From Sipunculus nudus (lineage: Eukaryota > Annelida > Sipuncula > Golfingiida > Sipunculidae), in contig CM049317.1 in assembly GCA_026874595.1 (NCBI GenBank), forward strand, positions 44,168,401 through 44,232,400: a stretch of DNA of 64,000 nucleotides. Direction: 5' to 3'. Within the stretch, counting starts at the first letter, position 1. Every line of letters begins with the position of its first letter. The translations under genes were made by a program, and so were the position numbers. Below the pieces are notes generated by a model. It saw only the letters and a list, made by a program, of their open reading frames with translations, ran no database searches and was not told the origin of the DNA. This document shows positions 1 through 56,036 of the stretch, one piece after another.

Positions 1-720
1 ATAACTAGCTTAATTTTCAAGCTTTTATTTTCAAATTTCAGATTTAGACAAACTAAATATTTATGTTTACATGCTGTGAAAATTAAATCAATGGTGCTTA
101 CAGAAAAAAAACGTGCCATGGTCAAAGTTGGGCAAAGTTTAAGGTACTGATTTTTTTTATGCTAATAACTTAAAAAATTTACAAAATTCAGATCTAATTT
201 TGGGTAAACAATTGAATCTTAATTAAACATAGTTATATACTTGAGAAAATAGACTCTAGTTTCAAAATTTTTCATGTTAAGTGAGATATTATTTTTCCTG
301 ATTTTTTACAAAGTCCATTATGTTTGGGCCCATAACTTATAGAATTTATACTTTACAGACTTAATTATTGGCAAGTACATAGGAACTATATGGAGGAATA
401 TTTATGGTAAATATGAGGAAAAACAGATGAGTGGTTTTGATATTAGGCAGTCCTGAAGTGTGAAAATAGGATTTTAATAAAAAATTGAGGTTTTTCCTTA
501 ATTTCTCAAAGGAACAAAGTCGCAAAGACCCAGTTTTCGGCTTGGTAGGAGATCTTGGGGACATCTAACATTATGCTGAATTTTGGATCCCTAGGTCTTA
601 CGGTTTCAAAACGTGCCACATCTACGGACAGACGGACGGACGTCCGGACGGCCGGACGGACGGACGACGGACAATGGACCACGACTATAGCTCAGATGAC
701 TTATAGTCAGCTGAGCTAAA
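1..720 (+). repeat. Dispersed repeat family A, copy 1 (left end outside window)
   Basis: The block ends in a run of GGAC/GGACGGACGG units followed by ACTATAGCTCAGATGACTTA and a GTCAGCTGAGCTAAAA tail. The same order of blocks (GTGCCATGGTCAAAGTT, TACTGATTTTTTTTATGCTA, the 'tgatnttaggcagtcctgaagtgtg' segment, the GGAC run and the tail) recurs at 7560-8140 and 18050-18732, so this is an interspersed family. No coding capacity is seen. It is probably a non-autonomous element; its class is unknown. Confidence 0.75.
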
Positions 721-848
721 AATACCATAGGTGACTGCATGGTGTTATTTGAAATACATTTTTATCAATCCATACAAGATTCTTACAATATCAATAATTG
801 CAAGGAATTTCCTGTTACTCATCAACCAGCAAATTCCTTTTCTATTAA

Positions 849-881
849 GGCCAGACTTTTTTAATCTTTCGGTTTACGAAC
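849..881 (+). repeat. Left terminal inverted repeat of the 6.4-kb transposon
   Basis: This 33-bp end begins GGCCAGACTTTTTTAAT and ends GGTTTACGAAC. It is preceded by TAA. Its partner is the reverse complement of 7240-7272. Confidence 0.85.
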
Positions 882-1459
882 CCGCCGACCTCCGATTTCC
901 TCAAATCAGAAAAAAAATAAAATTTGCATTTTGTGTTTTTTTTTCTTTTATATTGCGCCGCTGAGTCCGTAACTGTTGCCATTGCAAAAAAAGCCATGTT
1001 GATTATGAACCTGTAATTAGCGTAAGTGTCAGAACTCTTCCGATTGGCTGATAAGTTAGCTTTCCTGTTTGCAAATGGAGTTTTTAAGCCAATCATGATA
1101 GCGTATTCTTCGGCCATAAAGGCAAATGAATGGGCGTCTAAAAGGTACAAATATATGGAGAATTCACGGAGATTTTCTCTTTGGAATATAATTATGATTA
1201 TGTCAATTAGATAATATTTACAAAATAAATAACATAATAAAAATGCAAAATTAAACAATGATCAGTTGAAAGTTCGTAATTTAGTTTTAAATAGAATAGA
1301 TGAAAAGCGTAAAATGCATTTGATAAAGACGTAATTTAATGTGGAAATTCTCCGATAAATCTCCTGCGTCGCTCAAACTCCGTCATTTAGAAGTTCTACC
1401 CATGGCGCGAGCGTTCTGGGACTTTCAACTGCATCATTAAATTGTCTAAAAGGAACATA

Positions 1460-1833
1460 ATGGATGGGAATAACTGGGTCTGCATGAATATCAAAACAGA
1501 GTGTCGGACTATCGGCCGAGAAATAACCAAAGTCCCCGGTGATGCGACTGTTGGAGATTTGGTGGGAGCCGTTGAGCTCGATGCGGACCTTCGACTCAGT
1601 AAAATTGTTGGTTATTCGAGGGACCCTGAAGTTTGTGCATCCGAGAAAGGAATGGCCTTAGACCAGTCAATGCCTAGTTCATTACTATCAGTTTTTGAAA
1701 TTAAGCATATCGTCATCCATATGACGAAACTGCAGAACACTGACGACAGCGCAACGGGCCCAGGACAGCCTCAGAATGGACTAGAATTATTAATGAACAT
1801 GAACAGAAAATATGCCCATCTGCCACCTAAAGT
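1460..1833 (+). CDS. Exon 1 of the transposase-like gene
   Basis: It opens at ATG 1460 and stops before the consensus donor GTAAGT at 1834. It ends with two bases of a valine codon completed by the first base of exon 2. Intron 1 is 522 bp. Confidence 0.8.
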
Positions 1834-4800
1834 GTAAGTATTTAATAAAACCATTTTAATAATGATTTAATTTATTGTCATAACAGTTATTACTTTTTAC
1901 TATTGATCAATTCATGTTTAAGTTGGATAACAATTGTTAAATATAATAAATAATAATTTAATATTCCTTGACTCAAGATGTCTGTGTGGATCATATCACT
2001 AGTATGTGACAGTATTATTACATGTTTTTTATTTTAAGTTTTAAGATAAACCATTGAGTCATTTTTTTGCTGTTCTTAACAGTCATTTCTTTTCAACTTT
2101 AATTATTAGCTTTCTCAAGTAAACTAAATAACCAATTTAAATACTGTCGAATTGGAAAATTAACACCAATCTGAATATTTTTGTTGATTTTTTTTTAATA
2201 AATTTGTGAATTTGGATGAACTTATGTTACGTGGAGACCTGTATGCTTGAACAGATTTTATAGCCCCAGGGCACAGAAAATTCAATGAAATATATGGACA
2301 ATATTATGACTAGCAGATGAAGATAGTAATTTAATGAATTCTCTCTTTGTCGCAGGGAACCAAGGAATGCTCGTCACAGGCTCCAGAATGAAGTTTTAGA
2401 CATCATGAGAGACCACTACAAACTGGGTTTCCGACCAAGTCAGGTGCATGATATTGGGATCAAGATTCTGCTGGTTCTGACTGATGTTCTATGGTTCATA
2501 GATCCGTATCTTGAAAGGCTGGAGCATCGGAGCATACGGTTGCCTGAACCTTTTGCTGGATTGAAAGGTTTCCGGGATCTAAAGGCCCAGCATAAGAAGC
2601 TTCCAGCGGTAAATATTTAGCTTTCTGTCAACAAATTGACACCTTCATGGTTTTGAAATATGCATCATTGTAAAGTCTTCTTATTTTGTATAATTTTAAC
2701 AGTACACTTTAAAATTATGGGACTACTTTTTTAATATACTAACACATTACATGTTTTTAATTGTTCATATAATATTTATAAAATGATATTTATTTCTAGT
2801 TGAAAAGGCAGCCTCATTAGCCCTGCTGATCAATACATTACTTAAACAAGTGTATGCCATTTTTTCATGTGTTTTATTAGCAAGTTTATATTATTGTTGC
2901 CTACTTCAACAAGGGTCATTCTGAGTTTTATAAATGAGTTACCTCGGTTATTTTTCATACTTTTTATCTTGGTTAACATTGAAAATTCTTTATTGAAATA
3001 ATATAGAGGAACCTGGCCTGGTGATGTGAACTTGCACTTGTTTCTAATTATTTCTTTCAGCTAAAGTGTGAGGAACTTAAATCTAAATTGGACACCCTTG
3101 CTGAAACCCTGATGCTGCCTTGGTTCTTAGTTAGCCAGTTCAAATCATTCAGGGATGATGTAACAGCTCTGTATAATGCCTTGCTCAAATATAAGGAGTT
3201 TCTAACAAAACAGAGTGAACGTTCAGCTGCACACCATTCTTCAAAGGATCCAGTTAGGAGTGTCAAAGATAACTGGTGTTTGGAAGTAATTGAACGCAGT
3301 GAGCAGATAGAAAAGTTAGACATTGAAATGTATGAAAAATTGCATAGCTACATGGAAAGCAGAGAACTTTATGATCCTGTGTGTCTGCAAGATTTTCAAC
3401 CAGATGATAAACTTTTAAGGAGAAAATGGATAACAAACTTAAAATTCCCCTTCACCTGTTCTAAATATGTGTATTCTCAGGGTAATTATTTGGGAAATTT
3501 AACATTTGTATGGAAAATACATGAAATTCAGTATCAAAGAGATCCAGCACTGGATATTAAGATCATTCATGATCTACAAACACAGATTCCAAAATATTCC
3601 ACAAGGTCAATGCGCAAGGAATTCATTGAAGTGTTCTCAAGCCATGCAATTTGTACCCCTGCCCTATTGCGCAATATGTATCATTATCTGACTGAATATG
3701 AATTTGCTACAGAGAATCAGGCCCAGAGTGGTATAGATGACAGAGTTTGTGAATATTTACTCAGCGCTGATGATCCTGACTTAATATTCGATTTAAGAGC
3801 GCAGAATGGTAAGCACAAAAATCCTGAATTTGATGTCTTTTGGGAGGCCTTTGGAAAATTTCTTGATGAGAGGGCAATCTGTGACGAAAGGAGACATGGT
3901 GAAACGCTATACATGCCGCTAGCCATCTCTGTCCGAGATCTCAGGGAGCAAGTGCTGAAGACACTGCCAGAGGGTACAAAGGCACCCTCTCTATCTTGGA
4001 TACTGCTGAATTTTCAACCAGCTAATCCCTACACAAGGGCTGCAATGTATTACACTGGCAGATACAATGTTAAGTTTGCTGTTCAACAGAGAATTCTAAG
4101 ATCTAAGCATGAGGACTCGGCATATGCCTTTCATTTGTTTCAAATGCTGAAATGCATGGCTGTTAAATATAGAGATGTTTCAATGTTTCAGTGTTTGGAT
4201 GACAAGGCTGTTATCCCCATTGGTGAGCCAAGTGGGGCAATCTCTACAGGAGTCAGGGCTCACCATGGAGCTTTGGTTGTGGGGGGTAAGCGGTCTGCAC
4301 CATTGGCACTTGACCATGACTTCCATGTGGGGGGAATCATCCCCTCTGTATGCCTTGTAGTACAAATACCGCAAGATTCCAAGGATTCTTTTTACAAGGG
4401 AACAGTCTTTGTGACTGTGAAGGACAAAGTCTTCCAGCCTTCATCACCCATAAGACATGCAGCGGAGACCCTGAACATAGTCCGAGAAAACTACTCAGAG
4501 GATGATGTGTCATCACAATTTCCCATACTTTTCAGATTCACTGATGGAGGTCCAGATCATAGAACAATAAATAAATCAGTGCAGGCTGCAGCCTTGCTGG
4601 AATTCATTGCACTTGACCTTGACATGTTGGTGGCAGTGCGCACAGCCCCAAACCAAAGTTATAATAACCCGGCTGAGAGGATCATGTCGCTCTTGAATCT
4701 GGGGTTGCAAAATGTCGCTTTATCAAGGGAAGAAATGCCAGAGAATTTGGAAACCCGCATGAAGTCTTTGAACTCCCTGAAAGCCATTCGTAGGGCTGCA

Positions 4801-6479
4801 GAGAAAACCCCAAACCTTAAAGCCAGTTACATGAAAGCCACAGCGAAACCAATTGAAATTGTGAAGGAAAGATTTTCAAGGCTTGAGAGATTAGATGAAA
4901 AAGTTCAGGTTCACACAGCAGCCTGTGATACCGACCTGACAGCCATCAGGGAACTCATTGGAGTAATAGATAACTCCGTGGACCTGGATGATCTGAAGAG
5001 TGACTTCAGCAAATACCCGGCACTGGGCGACTTCTTCAGGAAACACACCAGACAAAGACATTATTCTTTTCAGGTAATAAAAGTTTCTAAGTTTCATTAG
5101 GTCAACCTAATTCAATGTATTACAGTTAAAAAATCACAATTTATAAAGCCTTTCATACTGGTTGCAAATTCTGCATGCCTTGGCATTTTACTCTTTTCAT
5201 TTCACGGTCTGATCTTTGTATTAAAAAAAAAGGAATTTTTGTGCATCATGAAACCCAGAATGCCTAGTTCAGTGTACTTTGACCTTATGGCCAGTGAACA
5301 TGTCAATTTTAATACATATGACAGGTGAGCATGGAAAAATGCTAAAATGTCCTGAAAAATTGCCAGCCTTTCTTCAGACTTGCACAGGAAAACCAGATTC
5401 AGGTTTTGTAAAATAAAAATATGGAAACTAAGATCATGGGGGGGGGATGGGAACAAGTCAGATGTCCACCTTCATAACATAGCGCATAATTTAACATGTA
5501 GAATTTAAAATGTGTCATTTTTTCATATTTCGTAGATAAAGAAGTGTGGAAACTGTGGATATTGCATCCTAAATCCATGGAGACTGACCAGTGATGTTGT
5601 TGACAGCCTCCATTTCCTGCCTGATCCAGTCCTGGATTCCAGTGGGGAATACCTTAGCTTTGAACAGTTGTATGGGACAGAAACTTCCGATGCAGACAGG
5701 CCTGGTTCCAAAAAGCAAGGGCAGCCAACAGACATGGACAGGAAACGCAAATCTTTACTAGTTGGTGGTGGGTAGCTGGTGATGGGGCATCAATTACAAT
5801 TGATAAATGTATGGATGGTCTTCTGTCCAGATAAAGGTTATTATTATTTGATCAGTGGCAGAAATTAAATTTATATAATAATAAACAGTAATGTTTCTGA
5901 GATTGTAAGAATATTTTCTTGTTATTAGATAGTGGCATCCTTTTACATTCCTGTCCTACCATAGAATTTTTTTCCAGTAATGATACAAAATATTAAAGTT
6001 CAAGTTTAAATGTTTCATTTTTAAAATGCCTGTACCCTTTTATATTTACAGGGAAGGTCAGGGCTTACATCATATGCGCTGAGTGCGGAAAGCGCAGGGT
6101 GGTTTACAGTGCCAAGAGATTTTCAATTCAGGAGGAACAAGCACTTCACCGGATACAAGAAGAGCTGATTTATACTTGTGGCAGCCCCTTAATTCTGGAT
6201 GGGCCACATAAAGATGTCCTTATTGTTAGAGAAGGTTTGACATGTGCATCACCAGTTGAGACTCAGTATTTTGCCAGTGTTACTCAAACATTTGATCCTG
6301 TCTGCTGCCACTGTAGCAGCACTGTGATTTTTGAGAATGATCACATTGAACAGCTGAAACAAGAGTGGGGAATAGTGAGGCCAATTTGTGAACTGTGTTA
6401 TAACAGTGGGAAGCGAGTAGTGACAAGAAATGCTTTAAAGGTTGCAATGCATAAAAGTGGTAAAAAGAAAAAGAAGTGA
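1460..6479 (+). CDS. Five-exon transposase-like protein, 1099 aa, DDE-type core with C-terminal cysteine clusters
   Basis: The coding sequence is join(1460-1833, 2356-2608, 3061-5073, 5536-5767, 6052-6479): 3300 nt, 1100 codons including TGA. Every junction has GT..AG and the phases agree (2, 0, 0, 1). The start is the first ATG in the open frame, at 1460. Candidate catalytic acids are D589/D590 (CLDDKAV), D704 (FTDGGPDHR) and E748 (NPAERIMS), the order expected of an RNase H-fold D-D-E nuclease. The 44-residue D-to-E gap is plausible for such a fold. The C-terminus has C884-x2-C887-x2-C890, C966-x2-C969, C1042/C1043/C1045 and C1070-x2-C1073, probably zinc-binding, and a lysine-rich tail. Residues 9-90 could form a ubiquitin-like beta-grasp domain, but that is weak. 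The placement between inverted repeats says it is the element's own transposase. The family is not recognised by name. A domesticated host gene is less likely given the intact ends. Confidence 0.82.
2356..2608 (+). CDS. Exon 2 of the transposase-like gene
   Basis: The acceptor is TTTGTCGCAG ending at 2355 and the donor is GTAAAT at 2609. The exon closes the split valine codon and continues EPRNARHRLQNEVLDIM. It leaves in phase 0. Intron 2 is 452 bp. Confidence 0.8.
3061..5073 (+). CDS. Exon 3 of the transposase-like gene (catalytic core)
   Basis: This 2013-bp exon follows a pyrimidine-rich TTTCTTTCAG acceptor and ends CAG before GTAATA at 5074. It encodes residues 210-880 without a stop and holds all three candidate acidic residues: D589/D590 near 4198, D704 at 4543 and E748 at 4675. 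Confidence 0.85.
5536..5767 (+). CDS. Exon 4 of the transposase-like gene
   Basis: The acceptor is TTTCGTAG ending at 5535. The donor GTGGGT at 5768 was chosen because only it and the poorer GTGGTG at 5765 keep the frame open into exon 5. It opens with IKKCGNCGYC, a CxxCxxC cluster, followed by a Ser/Asp-rich linker. Confidence 0.72.
6052..6479 (+). CDS. Exon 5 of the transposase-like gene
   Basis: It follows TATATTTACAG and enters in phase 1, reading KVRAYIICAECGKRR. It encodes further CxxC pairs and the Lys-rich C-terminus, then TGA at 6477-6479. Confidence 0.8.
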
Positions 6480-7077
6480 AGGATATTTTAGTATCCCTGA
6501 CCTGGTGATTTTCCTGTTATAGTAGTTGAGTACAAAATAGTACAAATGTTTTAAATGTTTCACCTGTACTGTTTGATTTTGGATAATGTTAAGGGATATT
6601 AAAATTATGATGTTCAAGATGAGCATAGTTCCTGCAGTAAACTAAAGGCCATTTTTTGTTACAAAATTAATTGACAAAATGATGAAAATAGGTGTATTAT
6701 CATTTAGCTTGGTGTGTTCTTAATTACTCCAAGATTTTATTTCAAATTCATGTCCTGATATAGCATACACTTTATATATGCAAAACATGGCAGAATTCTA
6801 TAAACAGTCTTCTGTTTATTATGTCATTTTAATATGTTAAAAGGTGATCATGCTGATTACAGAATATACTGCATGCTTTAAATGTTTCATCTTGATTACT
6901 AATTAAATGGTAAGTGCTTAAGAAAGATCATACTGATTAGTTTAATCTAAAGGACATTGTGAGGCCATTTTTTATAGTATTAACTAAAGTATAAAGTAGT
7001 AAAAATAAGTAATGACATGGAACGTGTTTTTGTTGGGTGGAGATTGCTTTCTGGATGTAGTTGATCAGTAATTTTAT

Positions 7078-7083
7078 AATAAA
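7078..7083 (+). terminator. Polyadenylation signal AATAAA of the transposase-like gene
   Basis: This is the first AATAAA after the stop codon, 600 bp downstream and 157 bp before the right inverted repeat. It gives an entirely element-internal 3' end. Confidence 0.5.
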
Positions 7084-7239
7084 GATTATGAAGTATTTGT
7101 TTAGTTTTTGTGCCATTTTAAAAATGATATGTAACCTGTTTGAATGATACAGCATTGCGAGCACCCATACATAGGTGTAAAGTGAATTTTTTTTTTTTTT
7201 TTTTTTTCCTACCTCCTACCTATGACTCTTTTCAAAAAT

Positions 7240-7272
7240 GTTCGTAAACCAAACAATTAAAAAAGTCTGGCC
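7240..7272 (-). repeat. Right terminal inverted repeat of the 6.4-kb transposon
   Basis: Its reverse complement begins GGCCAGACTTTTTTAAT and ends GGTTTACGAAC, matching 849-881 with three mismatches. It is followed directly by TAA. Confidence 0.85.
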
Positions 7273-7559
7273 TAATTTTTCTTATATTTGTTATTGAAAA
7301 CCATTAAAATATATTAATTTATTGTTTATTGTTAGGTTGTTGGTCAAAACAACTACTAGATGAGATGGGTTGGACACCTGGATCAACTGTGGCCAGCAAT
7401 AACCTGCCTGGATGCCAAGTATATGCCCCGCCTCAAGTGTGCAAAATTTGCCTGAAAGGTCAATAAGGTCATCATACATGTGACAGAAGAGGGGCTGGGT
7501 AGAACCTGGGTCTCACATGGTCTCATAAAAACCTTAATAAAAGCTACAGTTTTTGGCCA

Positions 7560-8140
7560 ATTTCTTTCAGCTTTCAAAACTAACAAGCATAAATCCTTTT
7601 GTGTGCATGATATGAAAATTATATCAACAGTGCTTACAGGAAACAAATGTGCCATGGTCAAAGTTTGGAAAAATTTAGGGTACTGATTTTTTTTTATGCT
7701 AATAACTTGTAATTTTTACAAAATTCAGATCTAATTTTGAGTATACAATTGAATCTTAATTAAAATAAGTTATATATTTGGAAAAAAGCCTCTAGCTTCA
7801 AAAGTTTTCATGTTATGTGAGCAAATATATTTCCTGATTTTTTACAAAGTCCAATATGTTCAAGCCAATAACTTATATGGCTTTGATGTTAGGCAGTCCT
7901 GAAGTGTGATAATAGATTTTTAATGGAAATTTGAGGTTTTTCCTTAATTTCTCTAATGAAAGAAGACGCAGTCACCCGGTTTTCAGTCTGGTAGGAGATC
8001 TTGGGGACATCTAACAGTATGCCCAGTTTTGGATTCGTAGGTCTAAAGGTTTCGAAACATGCCAGTCTAACGGACAGACAGACGGACTGACGACGGACCT
8101 AGACTATAGCTCAGATGACTTACAGTCAGCTGAGGTAAAA
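7560..8140 (+). repeat. Dispersed repeat family A, copy 2
   Basis: It is in the same orientation as copy 1, with the GTGCCATGGTCAAAGTTTGG block at about 7650, a shortened GGAC run near 8070 and the ACAGTCAGCTGAGGTAAAA tail. The 7273-7559 stretch before it shows nothing I can name. Confidence 0.75.
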
Positions 8141-8159
8141 TAATTTTGTTGCTGGGAGA

Positions 8160-8215
8160 AGGGGGGGGGCGTTAAAATTGATGCTAGCGGTGCCTCAGAA
8201 CCATACCTCCCCCCC
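8160..8215. repeat. Fragment related to the end of the 56.7-kb MITE
   Basis: The stretch TTAAAATTGATGC..GCGGTGCCT.AGAACCATACCT, flanked by G and C runs, matches the internal and right end of the element at 56682-57044. It appears to be a solo end or a degraded copy. Confidence 0.5.
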
Positions 8216-8289
8216 CCCCCAATATGTAAATTTTTATTCTTATAATTTAATTATTCTGTACAAATAAGTCAGTATAAAACTTTGATACA

Positions 8290-8745
8290 AGGTACCTGTA
8301 CAAACTAGTCAAGTATCTTCAAGATAAAAGTGATGTATCTTTGAATGAAGTACCAACTAGTCAAGTTTCTTACAGATAACAGTGATGCTTCTTTGAATTA
8401 AGACCCTACCAGTCAAGTTTCTTCCAATTAACAGTGATGTATCTTTGAATGAATTACACACTAGTAAAGTTTCTTTAAGATGACAGTGATGTAATCTGAA
8501 TGAAGTACACACTAGTCAAGTTTGTTCCAAATGACAGTATTGCATCTTTGAATGAAGTACCCATTAGTCAAGTTTTACCGAGATACTAGTAATGCATCTT
8601 TGAATGAAGTACACTCTAGTCAAGTTTCTTTCAGATAATAGTGATGCATCTTTGAATGAAGTACTTACTTATCAAGTTTCTCTCCGGATAACAGTAATGT
8701 ATCTTTGAATGCAGGTCACACTGGTCAAGTTACAGCTAACTGATA
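8290..8745. repeat. Tandem array, 52-bp unit, nine copies
   Basis: The core ACTAGTCAAG recurs at about 8304, 8356, 8408, 8460, 8511, 8563, 8615, 8667 and 8720, that is every 51-53 bp. The intervening sequence resembles 'tttcttccagataacagtgatgcatctttgaatgaagtac' with substitutions. No coding frame is conserved. Confidence 0.85.
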
Positions 8746-9453: not shown

Positions 9454-43966
<34,513 letters not shown>

Positions 43967-45264: not shown

Positions 45265-46552
45265 TTAATTTATATAGCGCTAATTCAACAAAATAGTTAT
45301 CAAAAGCACTTTACAAGACACAAAGCACAGTTTTACTAAAACATAAAATGTAGATTCCTACTAAAGCAAAGATTCCTAAAAGAAACCCTATATTTCTAAG
45401 AACTACCAAAAGCTAATATAAAAAGGTAAGTTTTAAGATTTCTTTTAAAAGAAGCTAAAGATGGTGAAGCTCCGATTGAGTGCGGAAGTTCATTCCACAA
45501 CCTTGGTGCCACAGCTGAGAAAGCTCTCGAACGACACATCTCACTTCGTGCTTTAGGGATCACTAAAAGCCCTTGGTCAGATGACCTAAGCTGCCTGACT
45601 GGAACATAAAAAGTTAAGAGGTTTCTAATGTAAATAGGCGATTGACCATTTATGGCTTTGTATACTAAGAATAAAATTTTAAAATCAATGCGCTGTCGCA
45701 CCGGGAGCCAATGGAATTCTTTAAGTATTGGTGTAATGTGGTCGCGCTTCTTGGCACCAGTTACAAGCCTAGCAGCTGCATTCTGCACTCTCTGTAGCCG
45801 GTCAAGTAACTTGCTAGGAAGACCACATAGCAAAGAGTTGGAACAGTTAATCCTTGAACTGATATGAACGCATGAGTTAATGTTATTAGTGAGTCTTGAG
45901 TTAGGAAACCCTTCATCCTAGCTATATTACGCAGGTTGTAAAAAGCCACACTACAAATATTATTTACATGCTTGTCAAGGCAAAGCCCTTGGTCAAACAC
46001 TACCCCCAGGTTTCTAGCACTGTTTGTTGGCACAACTACAGAGTCAAATATGTTAAGATTTTTCAACTGAATTATTGACCTCTGCTGGTTTGTACCGATA
46101 ATCAGAACCTCAGTTTTATCAGCATTGAGTTTAAGCAGATTCTGACACATCCAAACACCTATATGTCATGCAAGCATGTTTCAATGGTAGAATTGGGAAC
46201 CTTTGATTCTGGTTTAAATTATACATAAATTTGACTGTCATCAGCATGATAATCAATTCCATACTGTCGTATTAATTCACCAAGTGGTAATGTGTAAATT
46301 GTTAAAAACAGAGGCCCCAGCACAGAACCTTGTGGAACACCGTTGGTGATCTCAGCTGGAGAAGACTTATGACCTACAACACTAATACACTGACTTCGAT
46401 TGCACAGGTATGACCTGATCCATTGCAAGGCATCTCCAGTTATTCCAAGACTGGTGGACAACCGTTGTAACAGGAGCTGATGATCTACTAAATCAAAGGC
46501 AGCAGATAAATCCAAAAGTATGAGAATGGATACTTGTTGAGAGTCCATAGCC
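45263..46552 (-). pseudogene. 5'-truncated CR1/L2-type non-LTR retrotransposon, broken reverse transcriptase
   Basis: On the minus strand it reads LLDLSAAFDLVDHQLLLQRL, GVPQGSVLGPL, and HADDSQIYV (catalytic A-D-D). Then come KLNADKTEVLIIG, LRNIARMKGFLTQDSL, RLQRVQNAAARLVTGAKKRD, HWLPVRQRIDFKILFLVYKA and AFSAVAPRLWNELPHSIG, the usual C-terminal order of these elements. A stop at about 46219 and frameshifts near 46150 and 45860 break it. The 3' end resembles the family tail (AAAGTGCTTTTGATAAC, GCGCTATATAAAT). The 5' end is lost at a TA tract. Confidence 0.9.
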
Positions 46553-54500: not shown

Positions 54501-56036
54501 CCCCTGTCGTTGGAAGTCATTTGTGGCTAACAGGGTTATTGAGATCCAAGATCTGACTAGTCCGGCTCAGTCGAAACATTGTTCTGGCACTGAGAATCCT
54601 GCAGATTTGATGACTCTAGGACTTTTAGCTCAGGATTTGATTCAATCTGATCTTTGGTTGAATGGTCCACTATTTTGCCGGAGTGATGTAATCAGTTGTG
54701 ACAATTTTCATATTTCATTCGAGTCTTGTTCCGCATTGGAGAAGGTTCAAGATGAAGTCCGTGGTAAAGGAAACCAGGTAGATAGTGGTTTGAACAGAGC
54801 TGCACAGACGAGAAATGTCAGTGAACTTACCTATGAAGAGTTGTGTGGCAAAACTCACCTTGATTAAGTGTTCAGCAGACTGAATACAAATTGAATCTGA
54901 GGCTTAAGAAAAGAATCAACCTGTGTCCAGGTTTTCCTCTCTTCACAAATTGAGTCAGTTTGTCGATAGTTAGGGTTTTCTCAGGGTTCAAGGAAGACTG
55001 CAGTTAGCGTATCTGACTTTTGAGGAGAAGCAGACCATCATTTTGCCCAAATCTCACTTAGTTTTGTTAATGGTACGTCACCAATACAATATTCGCAAAT
55101 GTGCTGACCATTGTATTGTTGTGACCATGTGGGAATGAAGTTTTATGTCCTTTGTTTACATGTGTAGTTACCAGAGCTGTACATTTGGAGTTAGTGGAGT
55201 CGTAATCCGCTGAGGTAACAGTTATGGCCTTGTGTCGCTTTATAGCTCGACGAGGTATACCTTCTATTTTGATGTCAGATAATGCTTAATGATTTTGGGC
55301 TTCAAGATACCAGATCCAGAAGCTAATGGGACTGGTGGTCCACATTGGAGGTTCATTGTTCCCCGTGCCAAATGGGGAGGGGGGGGGGTATTGGTTCTGT
55401 GAAGTTTGCGTTCAAGAGATCTCTTCGTAATAGGTATCTTACTCGTGTTAAATTGGAGACGACACTGCATGAAATATGGCATAAATTCACGTCCGTTGAC
55501 ATGCGTTGGCGATGATCTTGATTCGGGATCTCCCTTAACACCTTCCTGTTTTCTGATTGGTACATCCTCTGATTTTAGTTCTGGTGTGGTTGCGGATGAA
55601 CAAGTGGTCAAATAGTGTGACCTAGTAGAACGCCAGAAGCTTAGATGTGAAGTCATAGATCAGTTTTGGTCATATTGGTCTAAAGAATACATCCGCATTG
55701 TTCCTACTTGTAAGGGCTCACCTAACTTTAAGGGCGGTGTTCAGATAGGGTCCCTTGTTTTGGTTATGGATGAGGCAACAAAGAGATTGCGGTGGCCCCT
55801 TGGTGTTGCTCAGAGGGTTTATCCTAGTCGGGATTTGGAATGGGTCGTACTGTTCAAAGTCAAACCTCCAAAGGGTTTGTTCGTAAGACCGATACCGAAA
55901 GTCACTGGTCTAAACACATATGCACTGAAAGCACAAGGTTCAAATTACTTTAGCACTGATATTGTGAATAATAATCCAAATGTTGTTACCAGATCTGGTC
56001 GCCAGATTGAAGTGCCTACCAGGCTGGATTCATAAT
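51504..56036 (+). pseudogene. Decayed BEL/Pao LTR retrotransposon gag-pol
   Basis: In order on the plus strand are: gag (MAHVRKIRAAAKGWLIKASV at 51510, then LPKLQLPSFSGNV and LPSDMPLELARKGELHESDL); a protease-like stretch (LDYYWKVMN, SIFGWTLSGP, at about 52800-52970); RT (VFDASASSLDGVSLNSCLNT at about 53400, LYDVDWLSRADSD at about 53740); RNase H (VANRVIEIQDLTSP, NPADLMTLGL at about 54520); an integrase zinc-finger region (about 55000-55130); and a C-terminal DUF5641-like part (about 55690-56030). Many stops and frameshifts separate them, so it cannot make a polyprotein. Confidence 0.85.

Follow-up and report, generated by a model that had tools for sequence, protein, structure and literature searches.

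Excerpts of PMC10045372 describe Zator transposons as the eukaryotic counterpart of the bacterial ISAzo13 elements, both generating 3-bp target-site duplications; the pairing also appears in the available part of PMC5718144, and a partial text of PMC7386202 ties Zator to the bacterial TP36 elements. Here we analysed a stretch of 64,000 nucleotides from Sipunculus nudus (NCBI GenBank assembly GCA_026874595.1, contig CM049317.1, positions 44,168,401 to 44,232,400 of the forward strand), hereafter the window, which harbours a DNA transposon of 6,424 bp at positions 849-7272. With a probability of about 0.87, we assign it to the Zator/ISAzo13 group, inside Zator or beside it, as a cut-and-paste DNA transposon that looks autonomous. 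This assignment follows from homology to ISAzo13 detected through divergent relatives of the element, taken together with the description of Zator as the ISAzo13 counterpart with 3-bp duplications. The kind of element is a known one; what sets it apart is its completeness, its youth and the failure of the profiles tried to detect it.

The element starts with GGCCAGACTTTTTTAATC, and a near-inverse of GGCCAGACTTTTTTAATC is found at the other end. Its borders are made up of the following features.

846-848, no strand: left target-site duplication, TAA, single copy at unoccupied paralogous sites.
849-881, forward strand: left terminal inverted repeat, 33 bp, starting with GGCC, the same in the copies L026, L027 and L028.
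7240-7272, reverse strand: right terminal inverted repeat, 33 bp, with 3 mismatches against the left one.
7273-7275, no strand: right target-site duplication, TAA.

After reverse-complementing the right end, 30 of the 33 positions were identical. When the window was scanned for inverted pairs (up to 5 mismatches per 33 bp, spacing up to 20 kb), the element ends were the only pair other than (TA)n among the first 60 of 749 listed, and the window held two occurrences of the first 17 bp of the end, with up to 3 mismatches allowed, one at either border of the element. The three left/right mismatches were identical in all four full-length copies found in the genome, indicating that the family carries them as a constant trait and that they do not measure age, for which reason their use as an age gauge was ruled out.

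A six-frame search of the organism's own assembly (1.43 Gb, 153 contigs) with exon 3 of the transposase gene produced 24 matches. Four were near-identical full exons, located in the window and on C4, C3 and C1, and the other 20 were divergent or broken. Three further full-length copies with the same end points were thereby available, 99.9% (L026), 99.7% (L028) and 98.7% (L027) identical to that of the window, and the 25-bp flanks differed among the full-length copies. Against the window copy, L026 had 5 mismatches and L028 had 12, and it is this divergence between copies, small for both, that indicates age. The reading frame was undisturbed in two of the four full-length copies, as L026 had no in-frame stop, L028 contained one and L027 had a shifted frame. 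Two intact frames out of four, together with L026 and L028 lying within 0.3% of the window, are consistent with an element that may still be mobile.

Target-site duplications were then scored over 17 insertions (the 4 full copies, a 1,776-bp element formed by L044 and L047, 10 elements with presumed paired ends, L030 and L036). A perfect 3-bp duplication flanked 14 of them (6 TAA, 7 TTA and 1 TCA), 13 of the 17 thus conforming to TWA, with the reservation that the duplication guided the choice of ends for L030 and L036; a 3-bp match by chance has a probability of approximately 0.019, given the base composition. The three failures were L027 (TAA/GAA), one element with TAA/TTA and one lacking a 3' end. 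The count leaves out L029, L031, L033, L034, L037-L040 and the 5' end of L035, whose borders were not fixed, as well as L041-L043, L045 and L046, for which the 5' end alone was fetched. The insertion site itself (window 720-848 and 7276-7439) belongs to a repeat of very high copy number, with 1,901 first-look candidates. When both flanks were joined through a single TAA, the resulting sequence matched all 40 candidates scored out of the 1,901 at 86-91% identity, nearly all from end to end. We read six of these unoccupied paralogous sites, and the junction of each displayed a single 3-bp site, which was TAA in five cases and TAT in the other, so that the borders of the element and its 3-bp duplication were fixed independently of the inverted repeats. 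The target of the element is a TWA-like 3-bp site, which insertion duplicates. An earlier note, made from the letters of the window alone, had put forward a complete DNA transposon with 33-bp ends, a TAA duplication and a five-exon gene, and had proposed to look for empty TAA sites; completeness and the youth that it attributed to the element are now supported by the other copies, the duplications and the unoccupied sites.

The transposase gene comprises five exons encoding 1,099 residues, with GT...AG introns, agreeing phases and one terminal stop. An alternative exon-4 donor 3 bp upstream would give 1,098 residues, the junction being uncertain by one residue. The coding features are these.

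1460-1833, forward strand: exon 1, with its ATG at 1460, N-terminal region.
2356-2608, forward strand: exon 2, homologous to L029 and L030.
3061-5073, forward strand: exon 3, 671 residues, containing the DDE catalytic core.
4186-4740, forward strand: catalytic core, with, in the numbering of the full protein, DDK (D589/D590), DGGPDHR (D704) and NPAER (E748), conserved in alignments and aligned with ISAzo13 transposases.
5536-5767, forward strand: exon 4, last base 5764 or 5767, start of the Cys-rich C-terminal part.
6052-6479, forward strand: exon 5, Cys-rich C terminus and stop.

The three further genome copies retained the same ends and splice sites, and exons 4 and 5 are conserved in divergent relatives, indicating that neither the gene model nor the ends arose by chance. 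Comparison of four lineages (window, L029, L030 and L036) showed 11 of the 12 window cysteines of exons 4-5 to be kept in every one, which supports exon 5. The exon 1 region had a low-identity match (31%, E 1.2e-8) upstream of the coding exon of L029; from the look of its sequence we would guess at a ubiquitin-like fold. The spliced gene is presumably translated into a transposase of about 1,099 residues. Alignment with the relatives L029 (49% identity) and L030 (34%) revealed invariant acidic positions in DDK, DHD, KD, DGGPD and NPxER, and a low-confidence structure model of the catalytic core suggested the order of strands and helices of an RNase H fold. Of the solved DDE folds, Mos1 gave the best alignment to the catalytic stretch, in a list topped by helical chance matches to residues 1-66; the absence of a family from this list means nothing.

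The protein of the window escaped every profile tried. The whole sequence had no match in Pfam at E values up to 10, and neither it nor the family alignment matched PDB sequences. Pfam searches with the exons and the core returned matches at chance level (the best being SRP14, 0.016), as did PHROGs with the five exons (4 matches, E 0.037-0.29), and NCBIfam, against which the exon 3 rows of the family were compared, did not match exon 3 of the window. No relatives of the window protein were found among viral contigs, prokaryote genome contigs, phages and plasmids. A candidate relative from the motif scan of viral contigs (L001) was dismissed, its 8-residue match being due to chance.

Divergent members of the family provided the link. 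A Pfam scan of 15 family rows detected the ISAzo13 transposase model (PF07592) in two, L036 (2.1e-10, 40.6 bits) and L035 (0.0015, 18 bits), the former above and the latter below the cut-off of 26.9, whilst the window protein alone failed. Eight other Pfam models matched one or two rows weakly, the best being NYN_YacP (2 rows, 0.0024), and the NCBIfam ISAzo13 model was found in 2 of the 15 rows (best 2.2e-6). Searching the whole genome with PF07592 yielded one place, C7:75738369-75738902 (38.7 bits against the cut-off of 26.9), which corresponded to L036, already known as a family member from the exon-3 search; the same model had no match in 14 control genomes. A tblastn search of 72,556 plasmids with the L036 core gave 8 records with E values from 0.08 to 6, 5 of them annotated as ISAzo13 family transposases. 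Five of the 8 records (H8, H4, H2, H1 and H3, the match being unannotated in H1 and H3) were retrieved and aligned with those of the family. Comparison of the family and ISAzo13 profiles reached a probability of 92, or of 95.5 when confined to the catalytic columns; dropping L035 and L036 lowered these values to 51 and 63.4. Among 60 column-shuffled controls the top scores were 2.5 and 2.0, the 2.5 standing beside the 95.5. These comparisons show that the DDE-type catalytic region of the family is homologous to ISAzo13 transposases.

The element shares with ISAzo13/TP36 the order of motifs (D-K, DHDF, DGG/DNG, P..S..N..E) and a D-to-E spacing of 42 versus 43 residues, and differs from it in length, 1,099 residues against about 400 for both of the ISAzo13 genes retrieved with full annotation, as well as in its four introns and Cys-rich C-terminal part. 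With Zator it has in common the 3-bp duplications and the ISAzo13 link, here through L036, whereas the window protein itself escapes the ISAzo13 profile. Zator was one of the superfamilies that the earlier note had named as candidates, and the L036 link agrees with it. Its suggestion of a lesser-known or undescribed lineage fared unevenly: the window protein is indeed missed by single-sequence profiles, but the divergent members tie the family to ISAzo13/Zator. We found no published description of this very family in the open-licence literature, and a family deposited in Repbase may exist. Uncharacterised proteins of a similar kind may occur in other animals.

Those same observations bear on the alternative that the element belongs to a separate, undescribed superfamily, sharing just a remote DDE ancestor with Zator/ISAzo13 and having acquired its 3-bp TWA duplications independently. 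The lack of a significant profile match for the window protein and its 1,099 residues with a Cys-rich C terminus, compared with about 400 in the two annotated ISAzo13 genes, speak for such a separation; however, L036, which is plainly of the same family, exceeds the curated PF07592 cut-off, and motif order, D-E spacing and duplication length all agree with ISAzo13/Zator, so that we regard it as unlikely, though to be taken seriously. PIF/Harbinger elements have a TWA target and GG ends, and both traits recur here (TWA duplications at 13 of 17 insertions, ends starting with GG). Nevertheless, a PIF/Harbinger-type element is improbable, as the Harbinger DDE model was absent from the Pfam matches of the 15 family rows, whereas the ISAzo13 model was present, a negative to be read knowing that HMMER drops most matches above E 0.1 and that the window row misses the model of its own group too; nor was a separate Myb-like gene noticed, although no search was aimed at one. 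Academ elements combine a 3-bp duplication and a long protein with an XPG-type nuclease or an Academ DDE region. The window element resembles them in duplication and protein length, but neither XPG nor any other Pfam domain was found in the 1,098-residue protein, and the exons and family rows likewise gave no Pfam match to an XPG or Academ region, Pfam possibly holding no Academ model; the Academ reading was placed behind the preferred one.

TAA duplications can also occur in Fot/pogo-type elements, according to the available part of PMC7386202, and Mos1 was the closest of the solved DDE folds to the catalytic stretch. A Fot/pogo-type origin is still very improbable: DDE_1 (PF03184) went unmatched in the family, whereas a pogo-type fragment elsewhere in the window matched it at 5.4e-23, indicating that the scan was able to find the DDE_1 family. 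KolobokP, described as abundant in bivalves in excerpts of PMC9587614, which also give TTAA as the Kolobok duplication, was discarded because TTAA does not fit the 3-bp duplications observed. The multi-exon gene without disabling change might finally be imagined as a host gene domesticated from a transposase, the reading that, according to the earlier note, a lack of other copies would favour. Three other copies were found, and the four near-identical copies carry terminal inverted repeats within different flanks, two of them with a disrupted frame; these copies and the clean unoccupied sites refute domestication at this locus, leaving it a negligible probability. Our preferred reading remains an element of the Zator/ISAzo13 group.

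Shorter elements share the ends of the transposon, and the stretch in common on the left is as follows.

849-1133, forward strand: left 285 bp, shared at about 77% with non-autonomous elements of about 1.8 kb.

With the left 452 bp as query, 40 of 303 candidates were scored and 41 matches listed, of which 29 covered bases 1 or 2 to 285 at 76-78%. With the right 451 bp, 40 of 287 candidates were scored and 42 matches listed, many of them falling on the last 83-183 bases. Pairing of 5' and 3' coordinates disclosed at least 7 elements of 1.77-1.83 kb (on C5, C2, C10 and C4, and three on C1), besides the 1,776-bp element L044+L047, read whole and flanked by TTA/TTA, and longer ones of about 2.0, 3.3, 5.7 and 6.3 kb. 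The 6.3-kb element (C14:62866936-62873214) has ends about 84% like those of the window and a TCA/TCA duplication, and was not among the exon-3 matches. L030 (reverse complement 2886-8303) and L036 (reverse complement 463-7943) represent further lineages of the same group, each with its own GGCC ends and TTA/TTA. L033 and L034 (C13, 30.66 and 30.81 Mb) are 99.7% identical over 9.8 of the 9.9 kb fetched, which probably reflects a recent segmental duplication that includes a broken copy.

Elsewhere in the window, the pogo-type remnant (DDE_1) lies at 14068-14730 on the forward strand, and a DUF5641 match (Pfam, 1.2e-12) at 55616-56032, also forward; we take DUF5641 to be typical of BEL/Pao retroelements. 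Two overlapping open frames on the reverse strand (45399-46165), with no Pfam match at E 0.01, presumably represent remains of a reverse transcriptase of a long interspersed nuclear element. Long tandem arrays occupy 29329-30738 (37-bp units), 31225-32167 (278 bp), 36903-38613 (339 bp) and 40871-41903 (279 bp), the 278-, 339- and 279-bp units having common stretches such as GGTGGCGCCACC.

In a plausible transposition mechanism, the 33-bp ends would be bound by the N-terminal and/or Cys-rich C-terminal parts, which would also build the synaptic complex. The putative RNase H-like core, with D704, E748 and either D590 or its neighbour D589, would cut both ends and join them to a target opened with a stagger of 3 bp, and host repair of the stagger would generate the duplication. 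The elements of about 1.8 kb may be moved in trans by this enzyme or that of a close relative.

These results expose a blind spot in annotation, since the core of the window transposase is missed by Pfam, PHROGs and NCBIfam and yet its cousin L036 passes the ISAzo13 cut-off. Tentatively, and with more doubt than confidence, a recently active lineage with a long, Cys-rich, intron-bearing transposase could have split from the ISAzo13 stock apart from the described Zator elements; profile-based annotation would then overlook it systematically, since the ISAzo13 models detect no more than its best-conserved members. For the Zator/ISAzo13 group, the element offers a well-supported set of borders, target site and unoccupied sites, along with copies that are almost identical and a gene free of disruption, which make the transposition chemistry and end recognition of the group directly testable.
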